Shown here: positions 12,696 to 63,268 of the stretch, piece after piece
Numbering within the stretch: the stretch's first letter is position 1
Layout of the letters: the number at the start of each line of letters is the position of its first letter
Assembly (NCBI GenBank): GCA_030386875.1
Contig: CM059563.1
Span: forward strand, 49,541,602-49,605,601
Length of the DNA: 64,000 nt
Direction: 5' to 3'
Origin: Morinoia aosen
Taxonomy: Eukaryota; Arthropoda; Malacostraca; Amphipoda; Talitridae
Notes under the pieces: generated by a model
Databases searched by the model: none
What the model was told of the DNA's origin: nothing
The model's input: the letters and a program-made list of their open reading frames with translations, nothing else
Translations under genes and position numbers: made by a program

Positions 12696-13012
12696 AGATC
12701 ATAAGTTAATTTCAGCTTTTTCACAACAAAGGTGTTCAAAGAGAGGAAGGATGAAGGCGCCATTTTGTATGGAGTTAAGGGAACGCAGAATCTATGCACA
12801 AGGTGTGCTTCCACACAAGATTCGCTTCGCATAAAAACTTCAGTTGAGAAAGGAGTTCATAAAACATGAAAGTGGATGTTGTAACACAGGACAGCAAGGA
12901 ACCGAAAAAAGATGATCCTGAACGAAACAAAAACCTATTCTATTTCAACAAAAAGAAGGCCTGCCTAACCTTCAGCTCGGGACCTCACACATTCCTATGA
13001 GGGCAAATTTTC
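12696..13012 (+). mobile_element. SINE-like repeat, copy 1 (diverged)
   Basis: Matches the family from the 5' AGAT-ATAAGTTA words through GAGAGGAAGGATGAAGGC, GGAGTTAAGGGAACG and CAACAAAAAGAAGGCCTG. The 3' end is lost after the GGACCTCACA word, before the terminal palindromes. No clear target-site duplication remains, so this is an older copy. Plus orientation. Confidence 0.8.
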
Positions 13013-15846
13013 GTCTGGCAAAACAGAAGGTCATGACGAGAACCTCGGTGCACTTGTAAACGAAAAAAATATCATGCAATTTACAAGAAATCTAAACGAA
13101 CAATTTCTCTAGCAAAATTATTGGTATTTGAAAGAAAAATGCTTTGAATTGATTTTTCAGACGTTCCAGGTCGTGTTAGGGCCATGAAATTTGACGTTTT
13201 TAACTTCACTCATCATTGAGTTGACAAAATAGTCACGTCAAGACCTAGCTTACAAAATTCATTACATCCACTGGTCATACAGCCCGACCGTACGCGACGT
13301 CGGTGCGCAAACATGCGTCGGTTGAGCATAACAAGCACGCTAAACGAACGCACACCCCCAGAAAGAAGTAACCCTCGCACAAAGGCGAAGGGAGAGTCGA
13401 CTGACACGAACGATTCTCATAAGCGCGCGTTCTTTCCATAATCGTGACAGTCATTACTGTCTGCAACAAAGCTCCCGTGGACACGACCCATCAAACTCGC
13501 GTCATTTCACGGCGAGCAATAAAATTGGAATGGAATGAGACAACGGACAGTTGCGGAGGTCGGCCTTGACCTGCCAATGCGAGCTGAGACCCGTGGGGGG
13601 GCGAGAAGATAGCGAGTGAACTTCTGTTGGGTCGGAGGGCTTTGATCCCCGTGAAGGTGCGGGAACTCCTCACGGAGGCAGCGACACGCACAAGGTACAT
13701 TCAGTTTCGCTAAAGGAGTAATTTTCAACTTTTTCTTCTCAGATATGGCGAGTTATGCAATAAAATAATCAAGACACGATATTAGTATTTAAAGGGGGTG
13801 TTAAAAAATTGGAAAGATGGGACTGTGTTGATAGGTTAAGATAGATAATTTATGAAGTTATTTTCATAGCACTGATTAAGGTTTTGAGTGGAACTTCAAT
13901 TTTTTTTGCAAAATTCAAGATTTTTTGTTTCAACACTGAAACAGGCTATCACTGAGCCATTCCAGAAATAAATTATTAAACATTTATACACATAAAGTGA
14001 TGAAGTACAAGCGTCAATAAAGCCAAGGAACCCTTCGCCCATCGATCTATCTTCGTGACGAAAAACTCTGAAAAAGAAACATATCGTAAAATTAAAAGAC
14101 TGGCAGAACGGTTTTAGATAGGTTATGTAAATGTCAAAAATTTCGTTTCATGGAAACGTCGTCAAAATTCATGCGCCCACCCTTCTTAAAACTCCCGAGA
14201 TACACGTCACAAATATTTCAAAGCACACGAGCTGAAAATCACTGTGATGAAGTGTGAAAACCCATCTCACGCTTGTAAAATATTAATTTTATAAAATGAT
14301 TCCAGAGAAATATTTTTGCGTGTACATGTGTACATTTTTATTTCAATAGAGTAACCAATGAAAAAAATTCATAGTTAAATCTTCTACTAATTTCATTGTC
14401 AGATTACTGTAGTGATGGTGAATGTTTCGATCAGAGTATCTTTAGAGTAATAAATCTCACAATTTTTGCACAACCACGAACCAAATGCGGCAAGCAGGCA
14501 CCGAGTAGCAGGGCAACCTAAAATATTGAGAAGGAGGTAGGGCATTGAACGTGTCGGATTGGAATGCCCCACGTACACACCTCGCAAGATAAAATATCAT
14601 CATGAAGGTTCAACCCTTTCCTGACCACTCCATTACATCTTCAAAAGCTATTCAAGTCCATCAAGGGACACTTGCCAATAGATCACGAACGAAGAAGAAA
14701 GTGATGCATCATTTCTCGGTGCGTTGGCTTAGGCCTAGCGCCTCGGTAGACCTCATGGGGAGCTCCAGAGAGCGGCACTTGGAGATTGAGCGCTAGTGCA
14801 AAGTTCAAGGAACCACGATGTTTCTTTCCAGTACTCGCACCTACGACTCATTTGAGACCCAGGATTTTAAGAAATATTAGAGCGAAAGTGTTTGAATGTC
14901 AGCTTCATTTCATCGTTAATGACAGTGCCTCTCCTCAGAAGGATTATCAGGTGAAAAGGCTAAAATTCCTTCAAAAAAGATGAATAAAAGTGGGTAATTA
15001 AGCACTTCTAAAACACCATTAAAGTTTTCCGTTCGCATTCAGAATTGCTAATTAAATTACCGAAGGAACATCTAGTTAATATTTTCATCGAAAAATTGCC
15101 AAGCCATCCACAAAAGCTGAATCACAATAGAATATAATAAGATCAGATGTTAAAATAGAATTATGCTACAAGAAGATATCTTAGGGGAGCGCACGTCGCA
15201 CCATATGGTAACCAGAATGCACGGAAGCGGTGAAAAGTGCTGATACAAGCAAAGAAGCCTACGTGCCATATCTTTCGAAGAAAAAGGGAAAGAAGACATG
15301 ACAGTAGAAACATATTGCGAGCTAGACGACGCGTCATTACAAGATCATTATTTTCCTCGATTTCTCAAGCGAACATGCAAGTCAGACAGCGACCAACAAT
15401 ATGTCTAATCGGAACAGTGTCAACAGGCCGTTTCATGGACACCGTCATCAATCTTAATTGATTTAAAGGTGTTGATGACAGACCGAGGAAAAGTCTCAAC
15501 TCGTTGTCACCTTCGCCCGAGCGATAAGTATGACGAGCGAATTCCAGGGCACAGAGAAAAGTTGACCATCGTGGCCGTACACAGATCAGCATGTTAGAGT
15601 GAGAAATAAGGGCTCGCATCAGAGTATGGTCGGCCTTGTTAGCTGATTTCATGGAATGGTCAGACGTACGACAAAGCCACAATAATAGACTTCAATTCTT
15701 GACCTCAATAGACACAAGAAAAAGTACACACGAAACACTTAAAATGCGAAAGATCATTATTTTTGACTGAAATAACATTGATTCAATGGGAAATGAGATG
15801 TTCGTACATATATTTCACAAGATTTCAACTTACGACTACTACCAGA
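13013..15846. other. Non-coding stretch without recognised features
   Basis: AT-rich sequence with scattered GC-richer words, for example 13270-13700 where minus-strand frames of about 70 codons overlap. None carries a recognisable motif or a convincing pair of splice sites. No repeat family or RNA gene was identified. Confidence 0.3.
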
Positions 15847-16207
15847 TGATTAGATTACAGGTTAGTTTAAGCCTCCCTAACCGCTACAAAAAAGTGCGTA
15901 TCGTAGAAAGGAAGGAGAAAAGCATCATTTAGTACGGATATTGGGGAATATGGAGAATTTATGCAGAAGGGGCACAGAAACAGCAAATTGGGAAAGAAGT
16001 TCATGAAACAAGATAAAAGTTGAAGAAGAAAGTAGTAGGTGCTGAAAAACAGGACAGCAGCGAACCGAAAATGGTAGTCCTTAACATAGCAAAAAATATC
16101 TTATTTCAACAAAAATAAGGCCTAGCTAACTCTCGGCTCGGGCCCTCACATTTTCCCCCTGGAAGCGCCAATTTTCAAAGATACAATTGTTGTATCCCTC
16201 TGAGCGG
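15847..16207 (+). mobile_element. SINE-like repeat, copy 2 (full length, 13-bp TSD)
   Basis: A full-length copy of about 361 bp. It is flanked by identical 13-bp direct repeats GACTACTACCAGA at 15834-15846 and 16208-16220. It begins TGATTAGATTA followed by GTTTAAGCCTCCCTAACC. It ends with the first palindrome intact (ATACAA-TTG-TTGTAT) and a slightly decayed second one. It has no open frame and no poly(A) tail. The duplication length fits target-primed reverse transcription with a LINE endonuclease. Confidence 0.9.
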
Positions 16208-16283
16208 GACTACTACCAGAAAATATGCATGAACGCGCTCGAGCGGATTTGATGGGATAAACTCTAGTTTGGTAATATTATAT

Positions 16284-16622
16284 TAAATTATTCGCTAGTT
16301 CAAGCTTCCCTCACCACAACAAAGGTGCGCAAAAGAAAGAAAGAAGGAAAACCTTATTGAAAAAAGAATGAGGGAAACTACAAATCAATCCAAAAAGTGT
16401 GTCCCACACCCTGCTCACAATATTTAAAAAAGATTGAAGGAGGCGTGTGAAAGAAGATGAAAGTTGAAGAAGGTGATAGGCGATGAAAAAAGGATACCAG
16501 TGAACTGAAAAAAGCAGATTCTTAAAAAACTTGTTTCATTTCAATTAAGGAAGGCCTGTGAGGTTCCTCAGTTCGAAACCTCACATCTTTAACTTGGAGT
16601 CACTAATTCCCATAAATACAAT
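16284..16622 (+). mobile_element. SINE-like repeat, copy 3 (old)
   Basis: Diverged copy about 75 bases after the previous one. Recognisable words include GTTCAAGCTTCCCTCACC, GATGAAAGTTGAAGAAGG, GGAAGGCCTGTGAGG and CTAATTCCCATAAATACAA. The terminal palindromes are lost and the end is blurred by a short local repeat of CATAAATACAATTT. Plus orientation. Confidence 0.75.
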
Positions 16623-17737
16623 TTACAACTACATAAATACAATTTGTCGGTCGTGTTTTTTAAGTTTTGTAAGACTTCGTCGTCTATACACTTTACCTTT
16701 ATTCTCCGTATGCGTGAAGTAAACTTTTTATTTTGATCAGACAGAATATCGTACATGAAGATGACAAATTATAGAGGTTACTAGGCTCTGTTGAAGAACA
16801 GGGCTTGACTGATAAGTCTTACTAACAGCCAAACGTTTATTAATAAAATGTTAAGTGATAGAAACACACTGTTAAGTTAAATAATTTTTCACCAACTAAA
16901 CTGTATAAGTGAAACTGTATTAACCCTACGCAGTAAATACTCTGAAATAGTAGAACCAACACATAAGTTAAAGAGATATCGTAGAATCGTCGACGAGGTC
17001 CCAGTATGTTGATTTGCTGCTTTAAGTCCCTGCTTCCTGTGGGCCAGGTTTTTGCGTCGAGATCAGGCAAGACATTCCAACTTGAATGAAGGAGTTGCAT
17101 TTCCCACACATGGTCACCAGTACGATTAGGAAAGGAAAAAAATTAACCTCCTCTTGAGAAAACTTTCACATGTCAAGAGAATCATTTACTATTTAGAGAT
17201 ATAGTTTATCTAATGGCAAAACGTTTCCATTCTGTACTAACTAAAATAAAATATAAACAGCGAAAGAGCTTGCACCAGAATAACACGCAAAGCGCTTTCA
17301 AATTAAGACGATTAACGTTGTACGGTGAGGCAGCGTAAGTATTTTACTAGTGACATTAAATTTAACGTCTAGCAGGGGATATTCGTCAGCCAATTGACGG
17401 ATTTAGGACGCGACACAAGATGCGACAAAACATAACTGCGAGCTCTGCTCGGAATCGTGGGAAGCTTTTCGAAGTCAAACACTCGGATGTGAAGAGAGGA
17501 ATGAAACGCTCGAAGTTTTTGGTGAAGTTGCACAGCAGAAAAAGCATAAAATTTCTTTCTTGTATTGGAATGTGCTCTCCTGCAGCGGCTTCTGTTGAAA
17601 ATAATTCGCCCATGAAACAGTTCGAACGCTCTGACTATTGATGGGAAAGAGAAAAGAGAGTGACGCTCTTTTTCACTGAACGGTTAACTAATTACATGGT
17701 TTAACACAAACTTGTGGATAAGTAGCAACAACAGCTT

Positions 17738-17791
17738 GAAGAAACTTATTGAGGTGCCGTTCTCGAAGAAACTTATTGAGGTGCCGTTCTC
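17738..17791. repeat. 27-bp perfect tandem duplication
   Basis: The 27-base unit beginning GAAGAAACTTATTGAGG and ending GTGCCGTTCTC occurs twice in direct succession (17738-17764, 17765-17791) with no difference, so it is probably recent. Replication slippage is the likely cause. It lies in non-coding DNA. Confidence 0.95.
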
Positions 17792-19669: not shown

Positions 19670-20005
19670 AGATTAGATTAGTCGTTAGTTTTAGCCTCCC
19701 TACCCAGCAACAATTGCGATCCAAAGAGAGGAAGGAGGAAGGCACCATTTAGTATGGAGTTAAGGAAACGCGGAATCTACGCAGAAAGGCATAGAAACAG
19801 TTAGTTGTGAAAGAAGATTATGAAACAAGACCAAAGTTGAAGAAGACAGTAGTAGGTGCTGAAAAACAGGACAGCAGTGAACCGAAAAAAGGTGGTCCTT
19901 AACATAACAAAAACATTTTATTTCAACAAAAAGAAGGCCTACCTAACTCTCAGCTCGGGCCCTCACATTGTCCCCCTGGGAGCGCTATAGTTCCCATAGA
20001 TACAA
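19670..20005 (+). mobile_element. SINE-like repeat, copy 4 (13-bp TSD, short 3' end)
   Basis: Flanked by perfect 13-bp repeats TCTCCTGAACGTT at 19657-19669 and 20006-20018. It begins AGATTAGATTAGTCG. It ends at ATACAA, in the middle of the first 3' palindrome, so this copy lacks the last 20 or so bases that others have but still has clean duplications. That suggests it was made from a shortened transcript or an alternative 3' priming point. Sequence is close to copies 10 and 11 (41.2 and 41.8 kb). Confidence 0.92.
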
Positions 20006-23753: not shown

Positions 23754-23757
23754 TTAA

Positions 23758-24040: not shown

Positions 24041-24345
24041 GAGATTAGGTTAGGTTAGATGCTACTTTAAGCCCTCCTAACAGCAAGAAAGGCGTTCCAA
24101 GAGAGGAGAGAGGAAGGCACTATTTAGTACGGACTTGAGGGAACGTGGAGTCTACGCACAAATTGCATAGAAACAGAAATTGAGAAAGAAGTTTATGTAA
24201 CTAAATAAAAGTTGAAGAAGGAAGTAGTAGGTGTTGAAAAATAGAACGGCGCTGTGAACAGAAAAATTTTGATCCGTAAAATTACAAAAAAACTTTACTG
24301 TTTCAACAAAAAGAAGACCTGCCTAACCTTTAGCCCAAGAACGTG
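24041..24345 (+). mobile_element. SINE-like repeat, copy 5 (3' truncated)
   Basis: Begins GAGATTAGGTTAGGTTAG, then CTTTAAGCCCTCCTAAC, GTTCCAAGAGAGG, AGTAGTAGGTG and CAACAAAAAGAAGACCTG. Similarity stops before the CCCCTGGGAGCGC word, so the terminal palindromes are absent. No duplication was found. The two TTAGG units at its 5' end are part of the element and not a telomeric tract. Confidence 0.8.
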
Positions 24346-29443: not shown

Positions 29444-30159
29444 ATTGATTGATTATAGTTTTAGCCTCCCTTTTGCATCAACAAGTTGTTCAATATAGGG
29501 AAGGATGAAGTCACCAACTAGTACGGAGTCAAGGGAACGTGGAATCTATGCACAAAGGGTGTTTACGAAAAAGATCCCTTGAGCATAGAAGCAGTAAGAT
29601 AAGAAGGAAGGTTAGATTAGATTATAAGTTAGTTTAAGCCTCCCTAACCGCTGCAACAATAGAGCGTATCGAAGAGAGGAAAGAGGAAGGCACCATTTAG
29701 TATGGAGATAAGAAAATGAGGAATCTAAGCAGAAAGGGCATAGAAACAGTAAGATGGGAAAGAAGTTCATGAAACAAGAAAAAAGTTGAAGAAGAAAGTC
29801 AGAGGTGCTGAAAAACAGGACAGTAGTGAACCGAAAAAAGTTGGTCCTTAACATAACAAAAACATTTTAGTTCAACAAAAAGAAGGCCTACCTAACTCTC
29901 AGCTCGGGCCCTCACATTTTTCCCCTGGGAGCGCTAATTCCCATAGATACAATAGTTGTATCCCCCTGAGGGGAAGAAGGAAGGTTATGAAACGAGATAA
30001 AAGTTGAAGAAGAAGGTCAGAGGTGCTGAAAAACAGGATAGCAGTGAACCGAAAAAAGATGGTCCTTAACAAAACAAAATAAAATTTTTTCAACAAAAAG
30101 AAGACCTACCTAACTCTCAGCACAGGACCTCACATTTCCCCCCTGGGAGCGCTAATTCC
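29444..30159 (+). mobile_element. SINE-like repeat, copy 6 (outer, split by copy 7)
   Basis: An older copy whose 5' part (29444-29613) runs from GTTTTAGCCTCCC to the GCATAGAAGCAGTAAGATAAG word. Its 3' part resumes at about 29974-29987 with GGTTATGAAACGAGATAAAAG and continues to GGGAGCGCTAATTCC near 30159. The gap is exactly filled by a younger copy. The two halves join at the expected place in the family sequence, so nothing was lost apart from the duplicated target. Confidence 0.88.
29614..29973 (+). mobile_element. SINE-like repeat, copy 7 (inner, full length, 13-bp TSD)
   Basis: A 360-bp full-length copy inserted into copy 6. It is flanked by perfect 13-bp repeats AAGAAGGAAGGTT (29601-29613, 29974-29986). 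It starts AGATTAGATTATAAGTTAG and ends with both 3' palindromes intact: ATACAA-TAG-TTGTAT and CCCCT-G-AGGGG. Inner and outer copies have the same orientation. This copy gives the clearest view of both element borders. Confidence 0.95.
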
Positions 30160-33100
30160 AGAAGAATATACATTCAAGTAAAACCATAATTTCACATTTA
30201 AAAAAAAGAAGGTGTGCATATTCAAGTCAAAAAAACCTGCACAATGTAGCAGAGCGCTCGCACAAAAATTAGCATTTTATCGCGAGTAGACAACTGCGAC
30301 GGCGATACAAACAAACAGAGACGGTGCCCTGCTGCACTCGTCTAGAATATATTTTATACAATGAAATTTTGGCATGCAAACGAGCAACCGTTTTTGACAT
30401 CGAACGAATCGAATCGCTGGACGATAGACCAGGTGATGGAAATTTTGATTAGACGGACCGTGAAAATTCAACCAACCACGTCGGATTTGTTAACTCGCCC
30501 AGCTCTCATGAACTCCACCTCATAATGTTGACCCTCAACTTGCAAACGAAGCGACCCGAACGTTCCTTGGACAGATAGCAGATTCGCAAAGCTCGGGGGG
30601 ACGGAATAACAAGAGAGCTCTATAAAAAATTTGGTATGCAAAGATAACCTGGAAGTCGAGTAATTCTCGCTTTCCGGTGTTTAGCATTCCTTGCGATGGA
30701 CTGTCATATGATCGAGGCTGTCATCCCTCCTGCAGGTACCGAAAAATAAACCAAACGTAACCTCCTTGTGTAAATCAATAAGATTGGTGGCAAAATAAAA
30801 CAGCTGAGTAAATTTGAGTAATATTAATAAGCAACAAGTTCGTGGACATGTTCATCCGCCCAAAACAAAATAATCCTTTACAAGAGGATGTGACGCCACT
30901 TCAAAAAAGAAGAAGAAAACGTAAAACCATACACATTTTCATGATAAAGTCCCCCAGAACGAAGTTGAAGTTGAGGTACTGAAGGAGGAAGGGCCGCTCG
31001 CCACAAACGGCAGACCTCACGCAGAGGAGGGTAGTAATTAAAACGTTCGGAAAATTGAACCAGATCTCCGAGGCGTCGGCAAGAAAAATAGTGCACAGAC
31101 ATTGGATCGGTTTTCTAATTACCGGGGATAATGAAGCGCGCCAATTATGAGGCAGGTATCTGTGAAGTATTTCTCTTCGAAAAAATGAAGTGCGCTTGTT
31201 CCAAGAAAATGCTCTTTTATATAGCTGATGGAATAGTTGTGGTTAGGCTGCGATGCGACCAATATTATGTAGCAGTCAATCGGTCGAGTTGTTTTCGGTG
31301 AATATCCACACTTCATTTTCTTTATTTCTGTGTGTTCTTGCTGTTCAGTGAAGTAAAAGTACAATCTTAATGCAGCACTGGAAGTCAAATTGAACACAAG
31401 TTTAGGATGAATTTGTACAAAACGAGGAAAATTTTCGACATAGAAGTGGTATCATGAGGTAGGTGATTCTGCTGTAAATAATTTTCCGAAACTCACAACT
31501 CCTACATACTTTAGAATTAATAGTCTTATGCATGAGAACAGTCCGATGAAAGAAACTGCATTTTTTAGCAACAATAAATACGTACGAGCATGATAAAAAT
31601 TTTACTCGCTCAACACACATAGGCGACACCAAAAATTTACGAACTTTACTGTGTGCATGGCGAAAGCCTCGAATACAAAATATCCCCATGATGACTATTG
31701 TGTTAGTCTGGCAGTGCGAAAATTGTAATCAATCTACGTACAAAAAAATTCATCAGGTAAAACCTCCGACAGTTTGTGCTTAAGTTAAGCTCCGTAAAAT
31801 TCCTGTCTAGCAGTCATTCTATGACGAATTGTATTCTCATTGTGCCAGCACGTTCTTTTCAATTCCTCAAGGTACTTTATTTCAGAAAGCTGTTGAAGCG
31901 CAAGTTCGATTTTATATGGTTTTCCGATCCATTTCTGGGAAAAAACTATTATAATTCATATGCTATCGTTAATATAATTCTGTAATATTCAACATTACTT
32001 TTTCACTTACTACCTTTACTGATCTCTTCAACATTTGCATTGTCAAAAAGAATGCACCAAACCTCACAGACACTGCCAGCATTGAAACCACACGAGTTTT
32101 TTTTTTGTTTTTCAAATAAATCAAAGATGTTTTGTTAGTTTGACCTTAAGAAGCAGAATCACATAAGGAGAATTTCTGTCCTTGATCAAGTGCGCTCTAA
32201 ATTTCTTTGTACAAGTTCTCTCCTGTAGAAGTAATGCTTGACCGTATTTCTCGTCTCACTGAAAAACAGAAATGGTAAGGCCAGCAAAAGTCTTGGAGAT
32301 AAAGAGAGGAGCTCAAGTGTAAAAGCAAAGAATAAAAGCGAGTGCTGTCTTTCCTATCGCCGAAGAGACGCAGGCACACGCAGCGGTCAGCGAACTGGAT
32401 GACAAGAAGATCAACGGTTGGGGCGGTAGTTGATGCATTCATTTGCATGTCCGCAGAGCGTCTCAATAAAGGCTACTAACTACCACCCTCCGATTGATCG
32501 ATGTGCCAAGACCAAAACAAAATTGAGTAGAAACTGGGGCCAACTGAACAAGGTGGAGGTGAAAGAGTTTATTTGTTGAAAGAACAAAGAGGTTCAGATT
32601 TGGTGAAAATTTAGGAATACAAACTCAAGGGAAAAAATAAACAGTTTCATACATCACACCATGCTCCTGAAAGTATTTAATTGCGTAATTGTTTTATTTT
32701 ACGTACAGTAACAATTATGCTACTAGAACGCATCAAAACAGCGCATTAACTTACAAAAAAAATATGAATTCTTGAAGAATATGAATTCTAAGACACCAAA
32801 CTTTTCTTTGTTGTAATACTAAACTCAACGGCAAAGGTTGATGCTTCAACGAAGTAGAATTTTTCTAACAAGGACTGAACGTTTCCGCATTCGCTAGGAT
32901 TAAAATGCACTTGTTGGCGAGGTCTGCACAGGCATTGAAGGATGTCTATCATTTTCTGCCAAAAACGCAGCGTTTCGCCTTCAAATCCAAGAATGGAGAG
33001 AGACCTTGTCAAGACTCTTGTCTTGAGGCAGTGTGAGTATGCAAGTTTACAGGCTATTACAATCGAAATTCGAATTGCCTTTTGTAGTGGCCCAGCTGAC

Positions 33101-34968: not shown

Positions 34969-35378
34969 AAGATAAGTCTATAAGTTAGTCTGAACCTCCC
35001 CAACCACATCGTTGGTGTTCCAAGAGAAGAAAGAAGATGACATAATTTAGTAAGGAAATAAGAGAAAGGGGAATCCATGCACAAGGTGTGAGTCCCCACA
35101 CTGCACATACAAATACCAAGATTGAAAGACGTCTCCAAAACAAGATTAAAGTTGCAGAAAAAAGTGTAAGCACTGAACAACCAAGCTGCGAACCGAATAA
35201 AGATTATCCATAACAAAGCAAATTCCTATTCTTTTTCTGGTCCATAAAAAACATAAAAACCATTTCATGTATTTCAACGAAAAGAAGGCTTGCCTAACCT
35301 TCAGCTAGGGGCCTCACCTTGGCACATTGAGAGTGCTAATTTTCACACATACAATAATTGCATCCTCCTAAGGGGAGA
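34969..35378 (+). mobile_element. SINE-like repeat, copy 8 (diverged, with insertion)
   Basis: Begins AAGATAAGTCTATAAGTTAG, then CTGAACCTCCCCAACC, GTGTTCCAAGAGAAGAAAG and AACGAAAAGAAGGCTTGCC. It is longer than usual because about 35 extra bases (around 35238-35275) split the region before the CAACAAAAAGAAGGC word. The 3' end has altered palindromes (ATACAA-TAA-TTGCAT, CCTCCTAAGGGG). No clear duplication. Confidence 0.78.
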
Positions 35379-38169: not shown

Positions 38170-38549
38170 AGAATATAGATTAAAAATTAGGTTTAGCCTC
38201 CCTTTACCACAATAAAGATGTTCAAGGAGAGGAAGGACGAAGGCACCATTGACTATGGAGTTAAGGGAACGTGGAATCTATGCACAAAGAGTGTTCCCGC
38301 AAAAGATCCCGAGCGCATAGAAACAGTAAAATATGAAGGCAGGTTATGAAACAAGATACAAGTTTAAGAAGAAAGTCAGAGGTGCTGAACCGAAAAGCAG
38401 TGAACCGAAAAAAATGGTCTTTAACAAAACAAAAACATATTATTTAAACAAAAGGAAGGCCTACCTAACTCTCAGCTCAGGACTTTACATTTTTCCCCCG
38501 GGAACGCTAATTCCCATAGATAAAATAGTTGTACCCCCCTAAAAAGATC
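38170..38549 (+). mobile_element. SINE-like repeat, copy 9 (12-bp TSD)
   Basis: Flanked by perfect 12-bp repeats GACGTGAACGAT at 38158-38169 and 38550-38561. It begins AGAATATAGATTAAAAATTAGG. It carries the GTGTTCCCGCAAAAGATCCCGAGCGCATAG variant also seen in copies 6 and 14, so it belongs to a subfamily with an extra roughly 20-base segment in the middle. The second 3' palindrome is changed to CCCCCTAAAAAGATC. Confidence 0.9.
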
Positions 38550-38561
38550 GACGTGAACGAT

Positions 38562-40266: not shown

Positions 40267-40270
40267 TAAA

Positions 40271-41220: not shown

Positions 41221-41231
41221 AAATGCTAATT

Positions 41232-41585
41232 AGATTAGATTAGTCGATATTTTTAGCCTCCCTACCCGCAACAACAAATGCGATCCAAAGAGAGGAAGGA
41301 GGAAGGCACCATTTAGTATGGAGTTAAGGAAACGCTGAATCTACGCAGAAAAGGCATAGAAACAGTAAGTTGGGAAAGAAGATTATGAAACAAGATCAAA
41401 GTTGAAGAAGGAAGTAGTAGGTGCTGAAAAACAGGACAGCAGTGAACCGAAAAAGGTGGTTAAAACATAACAAAAACATTTTATTTCTACAAAAAAAAAG
41501 CCTACCTGACTCAGCTCGGGCCCTCACCTTGTCCCCCTGGGAGCACTAATTCCCATAGATACAATAGTTGTATACCCCTGAGGGG
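41232..41585 (+). mobile_element. SINE-like repeat, copy 10 (11-14-bp TSD)
   Basis: Flanked by AAATGCTAATT(AGA) at 41221 and again at 41586. The last three bases are ambiguous because the element itself starts AGATTAG. It is full length, with GATACAATAGTTGTAT and CCCCTGAGGGG at the 3' end. Very close in sequence to copies 4 and 11, so probably part of the youngest group. Confidence 0.93.
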
Positions 41586-41826: not shown

Positions 41827-41839
41827 TGGAGAGCATTGA

Positions 41840-42201
41840 TTAGATTATTAGATTATTAGTTAGTTTAAGCCTCCCTATCCGCAACAAAGGCGATCCAAAG
41901 AGAGGAAAAAAGAAGGCACCATTTAGTATGGAGTTAAGGGAACGTGGAATCTATGCAGAAAGGGCACAGAAACAGTAAGATGAGAAAGAAGTTCATGAAA
42001 CAAGATCAGAGTTGAAGAAGAAAGTAGTAGGTGCTGAAAAACAGGACAGCAGTGAACCGAAAAAAGATGGTCCGTAACAAAATAAAAACCTATTCTTTTT
42101 CAACAAAAATAAAGCCTCCCTAACCTTTAGCTCAGGCCCTTACTTAGTCCCCCTAGGAGCGCTAATTCCCATAGATACAATAGTTGTATCCCCCTGAGGG
42201 G
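41840..42201 (+). mobile_element. SINE-like repeat, copy 11 (full length, 13-bp TSD)
   Basis: Flanked by perfect 13-bp repeats TGGAGAGCATTGA at 41827-41839 and 42202-42214. It begins TTAGATTATTAGATTATTAGTTAG and ends with both 3' palindromes intact. At 362 bp it and copies 2, 7 and 10 set the family's full length. A possible degenerate Pol III A-box (TAGTTTAAGCC) and B-box (GATCCAAAG, or GTTCAAGGA in other copies) lie near the 5' end, but neither is a good match. Confidence 0.94.
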
Positions 42202-42214
42202 TGGAGAGCATTGA

Positions 42215-43699
42215 AATTCGATACCAAATGATTTCGCTCATAAACCAAACACTACAAATGAAAAAAATTCAAAGCTTAATTTACAAATGGTCCCGCCTAG
42301 TAGGCAGTTTCACGTTGCCTATCGGGGCACCGAGAGCGAACCGGTTTTAGAAAACGCGTTCCTTTCTGTGCTGTACAGTTTGAAAGCTTCTAGAATTTCC
42401 GCTTCGCTCAGAATGCCACAGGGCAAATCCAAATGTACTCAATTTACAGCACATTTATGAATACAAACATGCATCGAATTGCACAAGCAATATTTGAATC
42501 ACAAGAGAAGATCACTGGCTCAGACAAAGGCAGCACAACTGACCAGGGAACAAAATGTCATCGTCAGGACAAAACAAAAATCATTCCCCCCAAAATTATG
42601 AAAAATAATGCTGATAAATATCGTCGAGATGAATACAGAAGTGAAAATAAATACAATTGAACACTGTGTATGACCAAAAATTTCACCAACAATTATTCTT
42701 TATACTTCATAAGACTTTCCATGATTCAAAAGTAAAGTAATAATTTTGGGAATCAATAAGGAAAAGTTTACCGAGAACAGTTTCATGGCCTCAATAAGTG
42801 AAAGCACAAGATTTCATCAAGTTCTTGATAATGGTGGTTTTGTTATAAACTTGAACTACACGCAGAACACATACCTGTTTTACATCTCATCTGTGAAGAG
42901 CAAGAATTGGAGACGCGACAGAACACTTGCATTTTCAGTGGCCACTCTTGCTGTTTTCTAAAATTACGTAAGTAGTTCGGGCGATAGCATAGAAGCACAA
43001 TCGAATATCGTTACGTTAATCTTACGATGGGGACAGCAAGTTAGAAAGGGAACAAGAACGTGTTCTTACACGCGAATAAAAACCCGCCTCCCAGCTCCCA
43101 CTCGCAGCAGACGCGCGTCTTGACACAGCGTGTTTTCACCAGTGCATGCCCGCCACTGGAGCTTGTGCTCGCGCGACCAGCCATAGATGAAAGCACAGCG
43201 CAGCTTTCGATAAAAAGTAAGTAGGAGGACAACAGTAAGCATCACGATGTGTTATCTTTGACAGATATCACACCTACAGCGCAACTGACCAGGAATGTGA
43301 ACGTTCTATAGTCACGAGAAAGATAAATTACTGACGTACATGCGGCACAATGGCGTTTTCAAAAACAACCAAATTTAGATTTGTCACAGCAACAGCAAGT
43401 TTAGACAATCTGGATTTACACTTAAAATTTACAAGGTGGATGAAAATTTCACGCCATGCTCAAACACTTTTTGCTACCAACCGATAGCATTCATGTGTTG
43501 TAATTACGTCATTATTAGTGCGATATTTGTATTTTAGAACATCGGTAGCCCATTGCTGGTTTTCAAAGTGTTAATCATGATTTGAAATTTATTATGAATT
43601 AGATATATTCTCATTGAAGATGTATATTCAATGATCGATTTATACAAAGGAAACTATCACGTAACCAAAAATAATAATTAGTTAATCATTAAAAAATTA
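42215..43699. other. Non-coding stretch without recognised features
   Basis: AT-rich with a slightly GC-richer patch at 43.08-43.20 kb. Several frames of 60-75 codons overlap on both strands; none resembles a known protein. Confidence 0.3.
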
Positions 43700-44072
43700 T
43701 ATCAGATTATAATTCAGTTTAAGCCTCCCTACCCAAAACAAAAGAGTTCTCGAAAGAGAATGAGGGTAAGCACTTTTTTTGAATAAATTAAGGGAAATAG
43801 GGTATCTATGCAAAGGTAAGTATGTCCCCATCCCATGGGCATACAGAAAGTACGAATGAAAGAAGGTAATGAACCAGATAAAAGTTGGAGATGAAAGTTA
43901 TGGACACTAAAAAAACAGAAGTAACCTTAAAAAAGAATGTCCTTAATAAAGCAAAGCCTATTTTACTCCCACGGAAGGAAGGCCCTTTTTGACTCTCAGC
44001 TTGAGACCCCGCACCCTTCCCCGAGGATCGCTGCTATCCACAAATAGAATAGTTTTACTCTCTCTGAGAAGT
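43700..44072 (+). mobile_element. SINE-like repeat, copy 12 (old)
   Basis: Recognised by CAGATTATAATTCAGTTTAAGCCTCCCTACCC, AGATAAAAGTTGGAGATGAAAG and ACGGAAGGAAGGCCC. The 3' end reads AATAGAATAGTTTTACTCTCTCTGAGAAG; the second palindrome is changed to a CTCTCTGAGA form that can still pair with itself. No duplication was found. Confidence 0.75.
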
Positions 44073-54055: not shown

Positions 54056-54415
54056 CAGATTATACCATCAGTTAGCTTAAGCCTCCCTAGCCACAAGAAA
54101 TGGATTTTTTAAGAGAGAAAGGAGGAAGGCACCATTTCGTATGGAGATAAGGGAACGCGGACCCTATACAGAAGGGACATAGAAACAGTAAGATCAGAAA
54201 GACGTTCATGAAACAAGATAAAAGTTGGAGAAGAAAGTAGTAGATGCTGGAAAATAGGACAGCAGTGAGCCGAAAAAGATGGTCCTTAACACAACAAAAA
54301 ACCTATTCTATTTCAACAACAGGGAGGCCTAGCTAACCTTTAGCTCGGGACCTGACTTATACTCCTTGGCAGCACTAATTCCCATAGATACAATAGTTGT
54401 ATTTCCCTGAGGGAA
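54056..54415 (+). mobile_element. SINE-like repeat, copy 13 (full length)
   Basis: Begins CAGATTATACCATCAGTTAG and runs to the end. The second 3' palindrome has changed from CCCCCTGAGGGG to TTTCCCTGAGGGAAA, so it stays self-complementary with changes on both arms (the last A's may be flank). The flanks GAAAATTTTGTC and GAAAACTTTTAG may be a decayed duplication. Confidence 0.88.
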
Positions 54416-55507: not shown

Positions 55508-56440
55508 TATTTCTTGCAGCGCGTGTTTTCAGCAGAAATTACTTCCCATCAATCATAGATCCCTTACGTTTCCTTGTCTATAACTGTCTCACAACTCTTA
55601 GCTTTGAAACGTTGATTCCGTACAACGCTCCTTCGACCCAAAGGAAACAAACTAACATGAGGAAGGATGCAATTTTTCTCATAAGACTCTGCTTAATTTT
55701 AAATACGCAGCATGCAAATGGAAAAATGTATATAAATGTTTTAAAGGAAAGAAAAAAATAACTATAACTTTTTGATTACAGCATACGGTGGACCCTGGAT
55801 TTCTCGAGTGCGTTTTCCCATGCAACTAGAAACTAAAAGCAAAGTTATATATGGACCTAACACTGAAAAGTTAAAACTTGAGCTGATAGAAATGTCATAA
55901 AAAAGAGACCTGTTTATCTCAACAACATTGCACAAGCGCAGGCTCCTTACCGTTGATGCCCCTAAATAACATCGAATTTCTCTCTTCCTCACGTCATCTC
56001 CAGATTTGAAGCACCAGACATCAGTGACATCACAAAGCGCCACGCACGAGCAACAAGTTGGTTAAGAAATGAACTACCTCTCTCCCGACAGGGCACAGAA
56101 TCGTCCTCCGAAAGAGCGCCCCGACTTTCACCACGTGTACCTTACCTGCACGAGAGTGTGCCCGAGACGACTGTTGCAGATGAGCGCAAATCTTTGAGAT
56201 AAATGATAAGCAATACTAAAAGACGAGTGGTGTGTGAGTGATAACGGCCAATAACTTACATGATCATTCGTACCCGGATATTAGTAATCATCTCCCTGTC
56301 TGAAATGCTCGCTCGAGTGCAGTGCATAAAGCGACTCAGAATACTATCACAAACAGCTAATTTCAATTTTGGAACCCGAATTACATTCAACACAATAGCG
56401 AAGAAAAGTAGATCCATGTTTTTTCTGTTATCACATTATA
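55508..56440. other. Non-coding stretch with two orphan splice-donor-like sites
   Basis: The minus strand has CTCGTGCAG followed by GTAAGG at about 56142-56147, and GCATCAACG followed by GTAAGG at about 55948-55953. The second closes a frame starting with Met at 56043. Either could be a 5' exon of the minus-strand gene, but the first has no upstream Met and the second ends in phase 0, which does not join the exon at 11731 directly. Confidence 0.2.
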
Positions 56441-56801
56441 TTAGATAAGTTAGCTTAAGCCTTCCTGATAACGATAAACGTGTTCCCAAGAGACTAAAAG
56501 AGAAGTCACGTTTCCATTTTTTCAGGAACGGGGAATCTATGCAAAAGGTGCACCCCCACACTCGGCGCATAGAAACAGCAAGATTAAAATCAGTTCATAA
56601 AAGAAGATGAAAGTTAAAGAAGAAAGGAACAGGTGATGAAAACCAAGATGGCAGTGAGCGGGGAAAAAAAGCCCGTTACAATTAAAAACTCTACTTTTTC
56701 ATTGGAAGTAAGGCCAACATAATCTTCAGTTTGGGACCTCACATCTTCCCTCCGGGATCGCTAATTCCTACAGGTACCAAGTTGCATCTCCTTGAGGTGG
56801 G
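56441..56801 (+). mobile_element. SINE-like repeat, copy 14 (diverged)
   Basis: Begins TTAGATAAGTTAGCTTAAGCCTTCC, and includes GTGCACCCCCACACTCGGCGCATAGAAACAG and GGAAGTAAGGCCAAC. It ends CTAATTCCTACAGGTACCAAGTTGCATCTCCTTGAGGTGG, a diverged form of the terminal palindromes. No duplication was found. Confidence 0.78.
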
Positions 56802-58434
56802 TTTATCAGGACTCTATATAATCGATAAAAAAATGAAACTGAATGCATCAAGCCATAATTACGACTATCGACATTTCAGAGATCATCATCTCGGTAACAG
56901 GAAAAATCTCTCAGCGCGTCTCCAGCTTTTTTAATCAGCTTTGCACAGACGTAAAAAATACCCTCCCGAAACAAACCACACTTTATCCACAACATCACTG
57001 AATAAAAATGTTCATTTAACAAGGGAAAAGTTCCAGGTATCCTTCACACAAAAATGATTCACTTTGATTCACACGTTGTGATTGCGGTTAGCGCGCGAAA
57101 TGACTTGAGATTGGAGTGCATGTCATTTCACTCTCATTCACGGCATTGGGCGTCTATTAGCTACTTGTAATTTTCTTCTACAAGGAGCACATTCCTTACG
57201 AGCGCCTAACTGCACGCATGGAATACATTCTACACATTTACGCAGTATTAACGTTAGCAACAATAACCCAAAAGGGTAACTTTTGACTTGGTATTATAAT
57301 ACGTGGAAATAGTTTCTCTGCACCCTAACAGTCAGAAATAAAAAAGCTGTTGTTACTCGTACAGGAAAAATACAACGTAAAAGGTGACGACGAAAGTCGG
57401 ATCCGAGAAACTTAAACAGAGAGAGTACTAGCAGTTCACGTTGAAATGACGAAATGGGATATCCTCCATTTCGACACAAGAAGTTCTGTCATAGCAAGCA
57501 ATATCGCTCACTACGATAACACTTTGAAAGGACGGGGAACGCTCTAGCAGTTGAGAAGCTCGCTCTGACCTGCCTCGCAATTGAAGTCACAACTTCATAT
57601 AAAACAAAAAGTTTTTTAAAACTAAACTGTCACCTGTCTTACTCCAAGGAAACACATCGGAACAGAAATGAAACGAACTCGTCTTGAAGGAATTACGGTC
57701 ACTAGAATGCGTACGTCTCTAAAATATCCATTCACACGATGGCCTCTGGAGACGGGAAGGATCAGTGGCAGAAGGGCGGCGAAAGTCAGAGGTCGTCGCA
57801 TCAAAAGGTGATCAACCGAGGCAACCGCCTCCGAGTAGGAAGTAACAAATTGAGGGCTAAAAAAGAGCCATTGCCTGAACGTTACGAACCAGTCTCGTGA
57901 ACGATAAGGAGCCAAGGTGTCGCACCAGGAATTCTTGAAATGACAAAAGAATCAGGGAAAGCGATCTTGCTCTGTCGAATACAACCTTGACAACCAACTC
58001 AGACTGCGAGCATTGTTGGAACAATATATGCAACCATTAAGTTGTGAGATTTCGCAAGAAACAAACGAAAAAGCGATAAATTGATTTTGTAACGCAACCA
58101 GGAAATTAACAATCTATGCTACCTTAAAAGAACCTATTAAATAGTGGGTTGTGCCACACCTGCAAAAAACTCAAATATTCAAAACTCAAAAAAAAAAAAT
58201 ACTGAAAGTGTCATAACTTGAAGTTCATCCCGAAGAAGTAAGTTCATCCTCAAATTCATCCTACAATCAAAAGCATCACTGTACACACTACACAGCCTGA
58301 TCAAAATTATTCAGTCAGACATTTTTGGACAAGCACTGTTAAAATAATTTCAATCAATTCTATATAGGGCCAAAATATTCGCAAATTTAGTGAAGAGAGA
58401 ATCAGGCGACCAATGACCCATTTAAGATGAGATA
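56802..58434. other. Non-coding stretch without recognised features
   Basis: AT-rich apart from 57.7-57.9 kb, where a 97-codon minus-strand frame (57622-57915) has no recognisable domain. No repeat or RNA gene was seen. Confidence 0.3.
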
Positions 58435-58802
58435 AGTTAGTTTAAAGCCTCTCTAACTACAACTAAGTCGTTCGAAAGAGGAAGAATGAAGGCACCATTT
58501 ACTATGGAGTTGGGGGAACACGGAATCTGCGTATAAGGTGTTTTTTCTACAAAAGATCTCCTGCGCATATAAACAGGATGTTGAGGAAGAAGGCTACGAA
58601 ATTAGATAGAAGTCATGAATAAAGTTTGAAACGCTGAAAAGCAGGGCATCCGGGAATCGAAAAAAGATGGTCCTTAACTAAACCAAAAAAAAAAATTTTA
58701 TTCAAACAAAAAAAAAGACCTACCGTTTTTCAGCTCAGGACCTCACGTTTCCCCCCTGGGGGCGTTAATTTCCACAAAAAATAGTTGCACCACCCTGAGG
58801 GG
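58435..58802 (+). mobile_element. SINE-like repeat, copy 15
   Basis: Begins AGATGAGATAAGTTAGTTTAAAGCC and includes the ACAAAAGATCTCCTGCGCATATAAACAG mid-segment of the longer subfamily. It ends ATAGTTGCACCACCCTGAGGGG with the last palindrome intact. CAATGAC is present on both flanks (about 58411 and 58806), a weak candidate for a decayed duplication. Confidence 0.85.
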
Positions 58803-59114
58803 AATCAATGACACAGAGACCCAACAAAAGGACAACCGTGTAAACTGACCTACACAAACCTCCTCATAACGCAGCTCCCATTTGAGACGGGAGTCACAAA
58901 GGATGATCGATCGGCCGATTGCTACAGTCAGTTAAGGGTTGGCGGATTGGCCTATTTCTGGCCAAGTTCCTCCAATTTTCGATTTTTTCAATAAAAAATG
59001 AAGCACACTTGTGTACTGCAGAGGGGAGTGGTCCACTACAGGTCGGCTTCGCTCTTTGACAGAAAGAGCGTGAATTTCAATATGGTCTTGCTTAAAATCT
59101 CAAAGCACTCGTAA
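58803..59114. other. Spacer between repeat elements
   Basis: About 310 bases with no recognised feature apart from a GC-richer patch (58.87-58.95 kb) containing GATCGATCGGCCGATTG, a short near-palindrome. Confidence 0.4.
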
Positions 59115-59526
59115 CAAGTTGACCGCAATTGGTGAAACTGAAGTTCTATGTTCAACTCGCATATAGTCAATTGTAGTATGCAATTTTGAAAATTAGCAAA
59201 CATTAATTGGGCAAAAAAGTTATCGGAAGGCTTCCTGATTTTAAGTAAAAAAGAGAGAACCAAAAACGCCGTATAAAACATTTAGTCGAATTAAAAACTA
59301 CAAGCAAAACAATAAAATAGAACGTTTCGAGCATTCGCTAATCTTCAGCAAAAACAAATTTACCTGAAAAACATCACTGGAAAAACATTAATTGGATCGT
59401 GCCTTTATTTAGTTTTTGATCAAGTTGATAGTTATGTAGATCGACTTGGTGACTACTGCTCCTCGGTCAGTAGCATTAAGAAAATTCCCTCCGCGTACAC
59501 CAGCGGTTCATGTCGCGATCAACGTA
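59115..59526 (-). mobile_element. piggyBac-type MITE, copy 6 (minus, split by an insertion)
   Basis: Left part 59115-59210 begins CAAGTTGACCGC and carries the GTGAAACTGAAGTTC word of the family. The right part continues from ATCGTGCCTTTATTTAG (59396) through GTGACTACTGCTCC to GTCGCGATCAACGTA, followed by TTGA (59527-59530), a one-base change from TTAA. A 172-bp foreign segment with its own duplication lies between. Confidence 0.8.
59211..59382 (-). mobile_element. Short insertion with Penelope/hammerhead-like motif
   Basis: This 172-bp segment interrupts a MITE and is bounded by perfect 13-bp repeats AAACATTAATTGG (59198-59210, 59383-59395). On the minus strand, 59348 down to 59323, it reads CTGAAGA, then 13 bases with a possible AGC/GCT stem, then GAAACG. 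This matches the CUGANGA...GAAA core layout of the hammerhead ribozymes that recur in Penelope-like retroelements. The following bases are T-rich. The size suggests a truncated or non-autonomous copy. The boundaries are firm; the family is an inference from this motif alone. Confidence 0.55.
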
Positions 59527-59530
59527 TTGA

Positions 59531-60845
59531 CAAACGTAGCGGATGAAGCAGCAGCTTCGGACTCCTCAAATGGTATCCAATAATATCTGAAGTCCATTGA
59601 TGAAGAGTGTCATTCTAGCCGCATACTCGAATGAGCTTTCATGTAAGGCATTATCATATCAAGTTTGCTACGTACAACTCGCAGCAAAGGAAGAAAAACC
59701 CAGCTACGCCAAAACAACCAGATGTTTCCGCTAGGATCGCATTTTCCTCGAAGGAACAATGGAAAAACACTTTAGAAACGAACTACGCTAGAAAAACTCA
59801 TCCGCTGAGAACGAAGGGCGCACATAGGAACTAACTTCGTACTAACGGTGAGCACGGTACAAATAACAAGAAATCGTTTTTGCCTTGGTAGGTAAAGAGG
59901 ACTTGTGACAGGCGATTGTACTCATCACGATGCCAGGAATGACAAGTGTGTGTGTGTCCCCACTGATGAACCGCAAGGACCCTTAATTATACGCCGCAAA
60001 ATGAGCGAGGCTACGTCATGAAGGGAAAAGAAAAATCTTCGGTCCTGCATCTTACGCGGTATACTAATGGGAATCCTTGAACTTCACTTTGGATAGGGCT
60101 GAAAAATCGACACAAAGTACAAAGTTTCCCGTATTTTGAAGAATAAAATCAGCTCGTACAAAATATTAACCATGTCTGTTTTACCACCGTTTGAAAACAT
60201 TTACGTTACCAACAAAATGAAATGAAACGACAAGAAAAAGGATCCAAGTTACAGCTCGAAACCTGTACGTCCGTGGAAAAATATTTCCCCGTAGATATTC
60301 TCTTTCTATTAGCTGAAGGAACAAAAAAATCATAGCAACACCGAAAATTATTTCTGTGCTTTGGTATAGATGTGGAGAGTATATTCATGTACTGTGAAAC
60401 ACACTCTAGCGTCGACACTTCAGAGAGAATCCAAAGGAGTCTAAAACTTCTACTCCTTTTTAGTTGTACATTTTATGCATAATATTCTCTAATATTTTTT
60501 TTAAAATAAAAAATCAAGTATCATACAAACAAATATACAACAATAAACAGTAACTATGACCAAGATACTCGTGCAAATGGTCGACACTATTGTGTCCCCA
60601 AGCAAATATACCCAAGGAAGTTGGATATACCAGGCGAACAAGGAATCACCTCGAGAGAAGACAAATTCATCAGCATATATGCTTTTCAAATTGAATGCTC
60701 AACTCACACCATACTTACTTGCACAAAGGGTAAGCTTCAATTAAACTCTCAAAACGTACATCGAAACTGAAATAATTTGCGAAGTAGTTCATTCACGTCG
60801 AACCCAGGGACTCGAGCTCGGACATCATGTCTCGCCGAACGCAAC
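59531..60845. other. Non-coding stretch
   Basis: Contains a short GTGTGTGTGTGT run near 59948. No gene was supported; a frame at 60556-60744 and others are of chance length. Confidence 0.3.
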
Positions 60846-61393: not shown

Positions 61394-61396
61394 TTA

Positions 61397-62997
61397 CACG
61401 GTCGGCCGCGAAGACACGCAGTAAAAATTGACATCTCACGTGATGACGGCGCAGTGAGTCATCGAGTTATATGTCAATTTACCCGTACACAACTGAGTCA
61501 CTTCACTCGGCAAGGAGAACAGGGGTTTATCACGGTTCATGTATTTAAGGGTACCTTTATGCAAACTGTACAAAGTGGGTCGATCAACAACGCACCGAGC
61601 CTTTCATAACCACAGGTTTGTGTAGGCGCGGTACGAGCCAGCGCTGTCGATCTGGACAAAAGCCGTATTTCTGCAGGTCCAATTACGGGTCATGTGTGTA
61701 ACAGCGGCTAGAACAGGTAAAAAGTTTGAAAAATTTACATTAGTAAAAGGATATCACGGTGTAAACTCATCTAGGGTTTTGCACCTATCCGGTGTGGCCA
61801 TCTTCCACTAGCCTACAAAAATGAAACAAGGAACACACTCCTACATCAAAACCTTTATACGTTACATTGTAGTTGTTGTATCGCTGGACTCTACGAATAA
61901 TGATTGATTTTTCGACACTTGTACAATCTCAAGGGTCCCGTTACTACAAATCGTAATAAATTTTTATTTTGTTGTACGGGTTAGCCACACCCTGAAATGT
62001 TTCGTGCTTTTCAAGTTTGTTGGAGTCTATTTACTTCTTCAGACCTGCGCACCTGCGTGAGGAGCCTGACATATTTAGTGAGATTTAACGGGAAAAAACT
62101 CTAATGTGGTCAAGAATGCACAGAACTATAAAAGTGCGGCGAAGGATTCTCTCAGCATGACCTCAAAATGGATGCTCTGTCCCAGCATGTGAGAGCGCAC
62201 AACCCTTCAGATCAGATCACTCCCTTTCCGAGCTATAGCCTGATCTGTACGAGCCGATGGATAGCCTTTCCACGGTCAAAAATTCCTAGAGAGCGCACGG
62301 CAGGTCGCGCGTTTTATCAGGGAGGAGATCCAAGCCTCCAGAGCCTTCCAGGAGAGCTTCTCTCACACTCGGAGGTCGTATATTAGATGTGATTGGCCAC
62401 AGGGACGCCTGCGCTTCGTGCCTCTGCTGCCCCCTCTGCATTTACCTCCAATTAGAAATGGGATACTTGGTTCTACCCACCAACATCATCGCCTTCAAGC
62501 TGCACAGTCACAGATATTCTAGCACGATACTACCAAAACGCCTCATTACGACAAAATCGCTGTTCCTCGTCTGTATGTGAACTTCAAATGCGAATTCAAA
62601 AAGTCTGCCAGCAGTCGAGAGTCGGAATATGAAATCTAGTATGGATTAACGCACAGAGCGTTTAACATCCGCGGAAATACCGTAGTAAAAATTAACACTT
62701 TTCAAGGAATAGTACAGTTTTAAGCCTTTAATTACTTAGAACTAAGGTGATCGCGATATTAACGTTAAAATGCGAACCGAAATAATGAAAATCTAACTCG
62801 TTGAGAACCATCAAAATTTTATGAAATAAAGATCCAAAAATAGAATGATTTAATACCATCGTAGATGAAATAAAAACATAAATGCAGCACAAATTATTTT
62901 TTTGCAGAAATAAACAACAAAGAATGTTCAAAAAATGTGACTCGACGACACTATGATACTGATTAAACTACGATACAGGTGAGTTCAACAAGCTACA
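61397..62997. other. Non-coding stretch without recognised features
   Basis: A GC-richer segment at 62.15-62.45 kb has plus-strand frames of 63-72 codons without recognisable domains. No repeat was seen. Confidence 0.3.
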
Positions 62998-63268
62998 TAT
63001 ATTAGATTAAGCCTTCCTCGTCGAATAAAATGCATGTATATAATTGAAAGATGAGGGCATAATATTCAGAATCGAATTAAGGGAACGGGAAATCTATGCA
63101 AAAGGAGTGTTCTAATATAAGATACTGTTCACATAGAAACAGCAAGAAAGAAAGTAAAGACCAAAATGATATAGAGAAGAAAGCGTGGAAACTCAGATCC
63201 AAAACAGGGAAGTCCCGATGGCCTATTAATAGCTGAAGTAATCCAAAAGTATTCCCCTGGAGGGACGC
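62998..63268 (+). mobile_element. SINE-like repeat, copy 16 (most diverged)
   Basis: Recognised by ATTAGATTAAGCCTTCC, GAATTAAGGGAACGGGAAATCTATGC, ACATAGAAACAGCAAG and a 3' TTCCCCTGGAGGG. The middle is partly lost. Probably the oldest copy in the window. Plus orientation. Confidence 0.6.

Follow-up and report, generated by a model that had tools for sequence, protein, structure and literature searches.

Why do the copies of a short repeat all face one way at this locus, and what kind of element are they? In the window (the whole stretch analysed, 64,000 nucleotides), a profile search with nhmmer finds 16 copies of an element of ~360 bp between 12.69 and 63.19 kb, each at E 1.8e-27 or better, with the best non-member at E 1.4. 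A plain search with a single copy as query recovers 14 of the 15 remaining copies at E 5e-10 or better, on one strand, and misses E16. An earlier, sequence-only reading had counted sixteen copies with a common body and common ends, no open frame and no poly(A). All of this is borne out: the longest stop-to-stop frame of the consensus has 56 codons, and there is no poly(A). Its statement that the family dominates the window is too strong, as the copies cover 6,132 of 64,000 bases (9.6%). All 16 lie on the minus strand, an arrangement absent from that reading. Two forms exist, a long one (nine copies, older) and a short one (seven copies, younger), differing by roughly 20-30 nt, and the short E7 is nested in the old, long E6 in the same direction. 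The copies are as follows.

E1, 12691..13003, minus strand: long form; 5' part absent or decayed (nhmmer model from position 44)
E2, 15847..16207, minus strand: short form; duplication 15834-15846 / 16208-16220, 13 bp exact
E3, 16280..16635, minus strand: long form, old (nhmmer)
E4, 19670..20005, minus strand: short form, 5'-truncated; duplication 19657-19669 / 20006-20018, 13 bp exact
E5, 24047..24339, minus strand: short form, 5'-truncated (nhmmer model from position 66)
E6, 29455..30170, minus strand: long form, old; split by E7 into 29455-29613 and 29975-30170
E7, 29615..29973, minus strand: short form, inside E6; duplication 29601-29614 / 29974-29987, 14 bp exact
E8, 34970..35374, minus strand: long form, carrying an extra insertion
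E9, 38170..38549, minus strand: long form; duplication 38158-38169 / 38550-38561, 11-12 bp; starts three bases beyond the other full copies
E10, 41235..41585, minus strand: short form; duplication 41221-41234 / 41586-41599, 14 bp exact
E11, 41840..42201, minus strand: short form; duplication 41827-41839 / 42202-42214, 13 bp exact
E12, 43699..44064, minus strand: long form (nhmmer)
E13, 54057..54413, minus strand: short form; duplication not above control
E14, 56439..56797, minus strand: long form (nhmmer)
E15, 58430..58801, minus strand: long form (nhmmer)
E16, 62995..63185, minus strand: long form, 5'-truncated (nhmmer model from position 175)

The sense strand of the element here is the minus strand, the reverse of the polarity first proposed. 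The supposed 5' start, TTAGATTAG, represents the (TAATC)n tail at the 3' end, viewed from the opposite strand; it was rejected as a start, the duplication-flanked copies being shortened at the opposite end, at various points. The element begins with CCCCTCAGGGG; at its 3' end, TAATC-like units come after a GGGAGGCTTAAACTAAC block. This polarity follows from the 5' shortening of exactly duplicated copies at differing points, and the tail, a pentanucleotide repeat, had been missed because the polarity was reversed. The duplications of 11-14 bp named earlier at six places are all exact; six of the 16 copies score 11-14, against a best of 9 in 240 swapped-flank pairs. The other ten show no duplication above control and lie at 0.166-0.498 K2P from the consensus. 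Thus, the view of a recently active family holds for the six duplicated copies and fails for the other ten, which are old. Inside and outside the window, 26 of 91 pieces reach a duplication score of at least 12, as against 33 of 3,602 swapped pairs, a null inflated by windows that include element letters. Among these 26 pieces, 12 start exactly at CCCCTCA, directly after the duplication, and six are 5'-shortened at different points, each with its tail present:

E4 and copies at window coordinates 73999, 109404, 121385, 125241 and 160018: 5'-shortened duplicated copies

Outside the window, the 3' end is reached by 49 of 54 pieces and the 5' end by 32 of 54. For 10 full window copies, the 150 nt upstream show no mutual similarity beyond chance (best E 0.29).

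Short elements that depend on LINEs are common, and the earlier view of a short, non-coding, retroposed element with flanking duplications is supported. The family is probably a non-autonomous retroelement of ~360 bp, inserted by target-primed reverse transcription with LINE-supplied machinery. An RNA would be made from the minus strand here, starting at CCCCTCAGGGG and ending in the GGGAGGCTTAAACTAAC block with its TAATC-like units, presumably by Pol II and not by Pol III. Most likely, a LINE-encoded protein acting in trans would take the 3' end of this RNA; the target would be nicked and the RNA copied from the nick, yielding exact duplications of ~11-15 bp and frequent 5' truncation. Reverse transcriptase genes are abundant in the genome (150 scored of 52,382 candidates). 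Two findings count against this mechanism: the 3' block is no more conserved than the middle, and the six LINE 3' ends read all carry GTAA-type tails, none TAATC. Nor does any of these six share the last 50 bases of the element, as had been suggested for a partner LINE. A longer autonomous coding element, the other prospect raised, was not noticed attached to any of the 91 pieces scored in and outside the window, in an inspection that was not a targeted search.

Several other identities can be weighed against these data. An internally deleted LINE derivative, with a 5' UTR joined to a 3' UTR, is a special case of the retroelement mechanism, its probability contained in that of the latter. It would inherit its promoter and fixed 5' end from the LINE, like NARTc, RIME and SIDER. 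The fixed 5' end fits it, and so does the failure of any Pol III box pair to exceed chance; no LINE sharing both ends is among the six 3' ends read, and we regard it as possible, if rather unlikely. If the copies were simply the 3' ends, truncated in the ordinary way, of a long LINE on which reverse transcription halts at one structured point, this would agree with the common 5' truncation and with two short hairpins possible at the 5' end of E7. Such a stop would have to be exact to the base in 12 of the 26 well-duplicated copies, and conserved 5' hairpins were not upheld, none of 10 folded copies clearly beating shuffles (z -1.62 to +0.91), which makes this origin quite improbable. Whole-element structure was likewise not above shuffles (z -0.05). 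A DNA transposon remnant (MITE) would also be short, repeated and flanked by direct repeats, but terminal inverted repeats were absent from the four copies searched, truncation is one-sided and the tail is variable, so that this origin is hardly credible.

The remaining identity is a conventional Pol III SINE, whose type 2 promoter would be worn or unusual and whose head would be tRNA-like. Size, duplications and tail are compatible with it, and an A-like box at 69 and a B-like box at 143 occupy corresponding places in several copies. A one-mismatch B-box-like GGTTCACTGCT, present in E4, E10 and E11, also counts against the preferred retroelement reading. However, in the consensus and eight copies, on both strands, no A/B-box pair is above chance; a sense-strand score of 19 (maximum 22), where it occurs, is reached by 20-34 of 100 shuffles. 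The A-like box is set 68 nt in from the 5' end, and the A-B spacing is 74, against the 30-40 bp given in the abstract of PMC7279448. T5 runs occur in the consensus at 93, 113, 137 and 160, and runs of four or more T number 3-10 per copy in all 16 copies; the T5 runs argue against Pol III transcription. Rfam gives no family at gathering score, and its HDV-like ribozyme models no match up to E 10. ARAGORN finds no tRNA at its default threshold. At threshold 70, a tRNA-like fold at sense positions ~27-137 appears in the consensus and in six of 16 copies; for each sequence, 2-14 of 100 shuffles show one as well. The count was made on linear sequences with dinucleotide shuffles, for related copies that are not independent and whose isotypes disagree. 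This recurring fold was masked in a circular reading at the same threshold (17 sequences gave 52 matches, E16 alone 19; 170 mononucleotide shuffles gave 342) and became visible in the linear rerun. The earlier doubt about a tRNA origin largely stands, the weak recurring fold being a contrary sign; the element may carry a worn tRNA head, and a Pol III SINE as such is unlikely. The apparent absence of a Pol III promoter raises a second question beside that of direction.

The feature that stands out is that neighbours agree in direction almost totally while the strands are balanced over the whole genome. In two billion bases, the family occupies thousands of sites: the genome-wide search proposed earlier, run in part, found 20 bases taken from the 3' end 9,434 times, with 4648 exact matches on one strand and 4786 on the other. 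Over the 264 kb that surround the window, all 72 element pieces lie on one strand; we know of no other family with such a record, and near-total local co-orientation is not expected of ordinary SINE-like repeats. On contig C1, exact matches <50 kb apart share a strand in 39 of 41 neighbour pairs and those >=100 kb apart in 17 of 43, and none of 20,000 shuffles equals the co-orientation observed below 100 kb. One exception counts against the preferred reading: at L002, two copies 490 bp apart face opposing directions. The family specificity of the co-orientation rests on the other repeats of this 264 kb region, some of them palindromic, which face both ways (31 same-strand and 18 opposite-strand pairs). 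A LINE 3' pattern was too sparse for neighbour comparison (66 exact matches), and none of the six LINE 3' ends matches anywhere in the 264 kb. AT skew, its sign compared with the element sense strand, was rejected as an explanation of direction: it agrees with the copies across the 264 kb and at L003, L004, L006, L007, L038, L042 and L043, disagrees at L005, L035, L036 and L041, and L002 is mixed.

The shared direction of the window copies is also that of a spliced gene, of which two exons were seen.

1352..4136, minus strand: internal coding exon of a presumed host gene; open frame, AG before and GT after, by eye
11264..11731, minus strand: second internal coding exon; AG before and GT after, by eye

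As the second exon is internal, the gene must have one or more exons upstream of it. Selection alone could produce the pattern if copies inserted at random and those lying antisense in long introns were lost through transcript damage. The sole gene seen does run in the sense direction of the copies, and over the 16 copies AATAAA (10 against 3) and ATTAAA (6 against 0) are commoner on the antisense than on the sense strand. Zero antisense pieces among 72 would nevertheless imply that clearly more than nine tenths of them were lost, which to our knowledge exceeds anything known for other families, and the other repeats of the region face both ways; selection alone is a serious possibility, though a doubtful one. 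In mammalian introns, an excerpt of PMC3088655 has LINEs and LTR elements leaning antisense, with SINEs differing between human and mouse. Segmental or tandem duplication of stretches already containing copies has some precedent in the fetched places, where L008 is a near-copy of L007 and L041 resembles L005, and may be a source of the long C1 runs, the flank comparison having covered the 264 kb. There, only 8 pairs cross-match among 129 flanks, five being the same DNA between neighbours and two of the other three inverted, and the end duplications differ between copies; as a general cause it is very unlikely. A directional insertion bias tied to transcription (or replication) direction is somewhat more likely than antisense selection in long introns. 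The fuller proposal, that the element machinery senses this direction and so creates domains, tens to hundreds of kb long, in which copies face one way, is tentative and, taken whole, unlikely. If insertion is directional, the strand of the family would mark transcription direction genome-wide, as a natural germ-line recorder, and the family would allow a direct test of what retroelement targeting tracks, transcription or replication.

Literature on the family or on one-way clusters gave no matching named family among the matches listed. In a text search with four element stretches, the shortest occurs once each in three papers with cancer in their titles, among the matches listed. Exact-pattern scans gave no match in viral contigs (three element patterns) or in prokaryote contigs (one pattern).

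Among known systems, many NARTc, RIME and SIDER copies lie in the sense of transcription. These trypanosomatid elements are short non-autonomous LINE derivatives, according to an excerpt of PMC4035085; the likeness is by description, and the present family differs from them in having no HDV-like ribozyme match. In UnaSINE1 / UnaL2 of the eel, a stringent LINE-SINE pair, the 3' end consists of a conserved block and (TGTAA)n (PMC5135761, in excerpt). The present element likewise joins a 3' block to a pentanucleotide repeat, here (TAATC)n, but lacks a tRNA-like head at default thresholds; its 3' block was compared by alignment. With SINEs derived from tRNA, 5S or 7SL it shares size, duplications and, presumably, LINE dependence. 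It differs from them in having no small-RNA head at default thresholds and no above-chance box pair, and in carrying internal T5 runs and a strong local co-orientation.

The repeat family noted in the window is real. A profile built from copies that include these ones detects 18 pieces there, corresponding to 16 elements of ~360 bp (E1–E16), with E 1.8e-27 or better; the next-best match stands at E 1.4. With the window reversed as a control, the same profile reaches at best E 0.059. A plain search with E2 alone recovers 14 of the 15 other copies (E 5e-10 or better). All copies occupy one strand, and their intervals sum to 6,132 bases. The assembly comprises 1,990,973,590 bases in 29 contigs, and the window corresponds to C8:49541602–49605601. 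In this assembly a 20-base block, TTAGGGAGGCTTAAACTAAC, has 4,648 forward and 4,786 reverse exact matches, and its pattern read backwards has none. Because just two of the 16 window copies (E2 and E7, by eye) hold the exact block, the family may, as a rough estimate, comprise tens of thousands of copies. Four 8-kb places chosen blind to copies hold 3, 1, 0 and 1 pieces, versus 72 in the 264 kb formed by the window and 100 kb on each side.

Read on the minus strand, all window copies finish in a GGGAGGCTTAAAC-like block and then a variable number of TAATC-like units. Losses occur at the opposite end from this tail, with model start positions of 44 (E1), 66 (E5), 22 (E6) and 175 (E16), and E4 begins TTGTATC directly after its exact duplication. 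Of the 54 pieces that lie outside the window in the same 264 kb, 49 extend to the 3′ end (to model 355 or further) and 32 to the 5′ end (starting at model 9 or lower). Among 91 pieces from the 264 kb and nine other places, 26 show a flank match of at least 12, versus 33 of 3,602 swapped pairs, a null inflated by windows holding element letters. Twelve of these 26 start precisely with CCCCTCA, six are 5′-shortened at differing points with the tail present, and one (in locus L005) is a tail-only match and not a true duplication. The shortened ends are 5′ truncations through incomplete reverse transcription, a process whose general features are outlined in PMC2881922. The sequence-only reading had thus swapped the 5′ and 3′ ends, since the tail is kept, the other end is lost and truncated copies carry duplications.

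Duplication scores are 13, 13, 14, 11, 14 and 13 in E2, E4, E7, E9, E10 and E11, and 3 to 6 in the remaining ten window copies (top of 240 controls, 9); junctions were hand-placed ahead of this test, and old duplications were possibly overlooked. K2P divergence from the all-copy consensus ranges from 0.087 to 0.498. No other copy is as close to this consensus as the six that have exact duplications (0.087–0.163; next is E13, 0.166), which lie at 0.065–0.148 from the short-form consensus (for E9, the long-form consensus). Their 78 duplication positions contain no mismatch, where ~16 would be expected if divergence were post-insertion (P ~1e-8, a value too small because exact matches were pre-selected); this suggests that much of their divergence was already present in the source RNAs. 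The two forms differ by roughly 20–30 nt, absent from seven copies and present in some form in the nine others. E7 is nested within E6 in identical direction, and its duplication matches internal sequence of E6, the counterpart of which is single in other copies. A short element inside a long one agrees with the long form being the older.

Transcription is probably by Pol II, as no box pair rises above shuffles and the consensus carries T5 runs at 93, 113, 137 and 160, which are expected to terminate Pol III transcription. In the consensus and eight of the 16 copies, both strands, 20 or more of every 100 shuffles score as high as the best A/B-box pair. Rfam gives no match at gathering scores and, up to E 10, only five weak matches to unrelated families, one of them (bxd_2, E 7.9) across E2. 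At default settings ARAGORN reports no tRNA. At threshold 70, however, a tRNA-like fold at ~27–137 recurs in E1, E2, E4, E7, E13, E15 and the consensus (background, 2–14 of 100 dinucleotide shuffles), which counts against a non-Pol III reading and cannot be dismissed.

Orientation of neighbours is strikingly uniform. All 72 merged pieces in the 264 kb lie on the minus strand, the window's 16 elements accounting for 18 pieces, so that elements are somewhat fewer than pieces. Segmental duplication was not seen around the copies of the 264 kb: 129 flanks give eight cross-matches, five of which are the same DNA between neighbours, one direct and two inverted. Other repeats in this region form 31 same-strand versus 18 opposite-strand pairs. 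The window also contains a second family of ~225 bp that looks like a MITE, perhaps of piggyBac type; its inverted stretches are long at 23.5 kb and 39.9 kb and weak at 59.1 kb.

Other repeats in the window
5462–5686: ~225-bp family, copy with 17-bp perfect inverted ends
near 23531–23979, 39825–40269 and 59112–59531: relatives of this family
55325–55503, 55096–55187 and 17738–17806: imperfect tandem arrays, units of 32, 31 and 27 bp, respectively
18462–18672: adjacent direct duplication, ~99 bp, 79% identical
6437–6682: adjacent direct duplication, ~120 bp, 74% identical

Two internal exons lie on the minus strand (1352–4136 and 11264–11731), so the window copies very probably reside in long introns, in sense direction. 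The encoded protein is low-complexity, with nothing above cut-off in Pfam and nothing in a PDB search; we take the larger exon to be reminiscent of Shroom-like proteins. On the plus strand A exceeds T in 27 of 27 ten-kb steps across the 264 kb (the last of 4 kb), by 0.076–0.193 per step, versus −0.049 to 0.025 in the four blind samples. This steady excess fits one long transcription unit, without proving it.

Co-orientation extends elsewhere. Among the first 100 of 9,434 block matches, on contig C1 and possibly including duplicated DNA, same-strand neighbours number 8/8 below 5 kb, 12/13 at 5–20 kb, 19/20 at 20–50 kb, 11/15 at 50–100 kb, 9/19 at 100–300 kb and 8/24 beyond. In these matches 50 of 56 pairs below 100 kb agree (maximum over 20,000 strand shuffles, 41), and up to 21 successive matches share a strand (13.04–14.27 Mb). 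Eight other places hold at least two pieces; seven are uniform (L004, L005, L007, L035, L041, L042 and L043) and L002 is mixed, but L041, 135 kb away from L005, is apparently a near-copy of it, L008 repeats L007, and places other than L035 were chosen for holding a good copy.

LINEs were sought with PF00078 (150 scored of 52,382 candidates). The TAATC tail is absent from six 3′ ends of LINEs with long open frames, whose tails are GTAA-type. One LINE group of these six shares 22 nt with the element antisense, 17 of them exact and consecutive (E 4e-5 by blastn-short; E 0.013 by nhmmer in a 9-kb search), and the stretch recurs in two further copies of that LINE (three in all).

LINE 3′ UTR carrying the match
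L029 (C10:58201700–58203200), about 266–288: antisense to element sense 27–48

Because of this match, the element RNA could pair with the 3′ UTR of that LINE. The 22 nt may reflect chance, fragment capture or a route to the LINE's enzyme. Separately, L031 (C4:67331890–67333390) holds at 1104–1177 a worn family fragment (model 55–129, E 5.5e-13), some 850 bases after a LINE open frame ends.

Collectively, these are most likely LINE-dependent short elements, and the co-orientation of neighbours in such a family merits a full genome map. UnaL2 and UnaSINE1 have a tail similar to that of the element (PMC5135761). A stringent-type SINE is alike in its mode of working, but here partner and stem-loop are putative and two Pol III tests were negative. 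The nearest model is that of internal LINE derivatives (PMC4035085).
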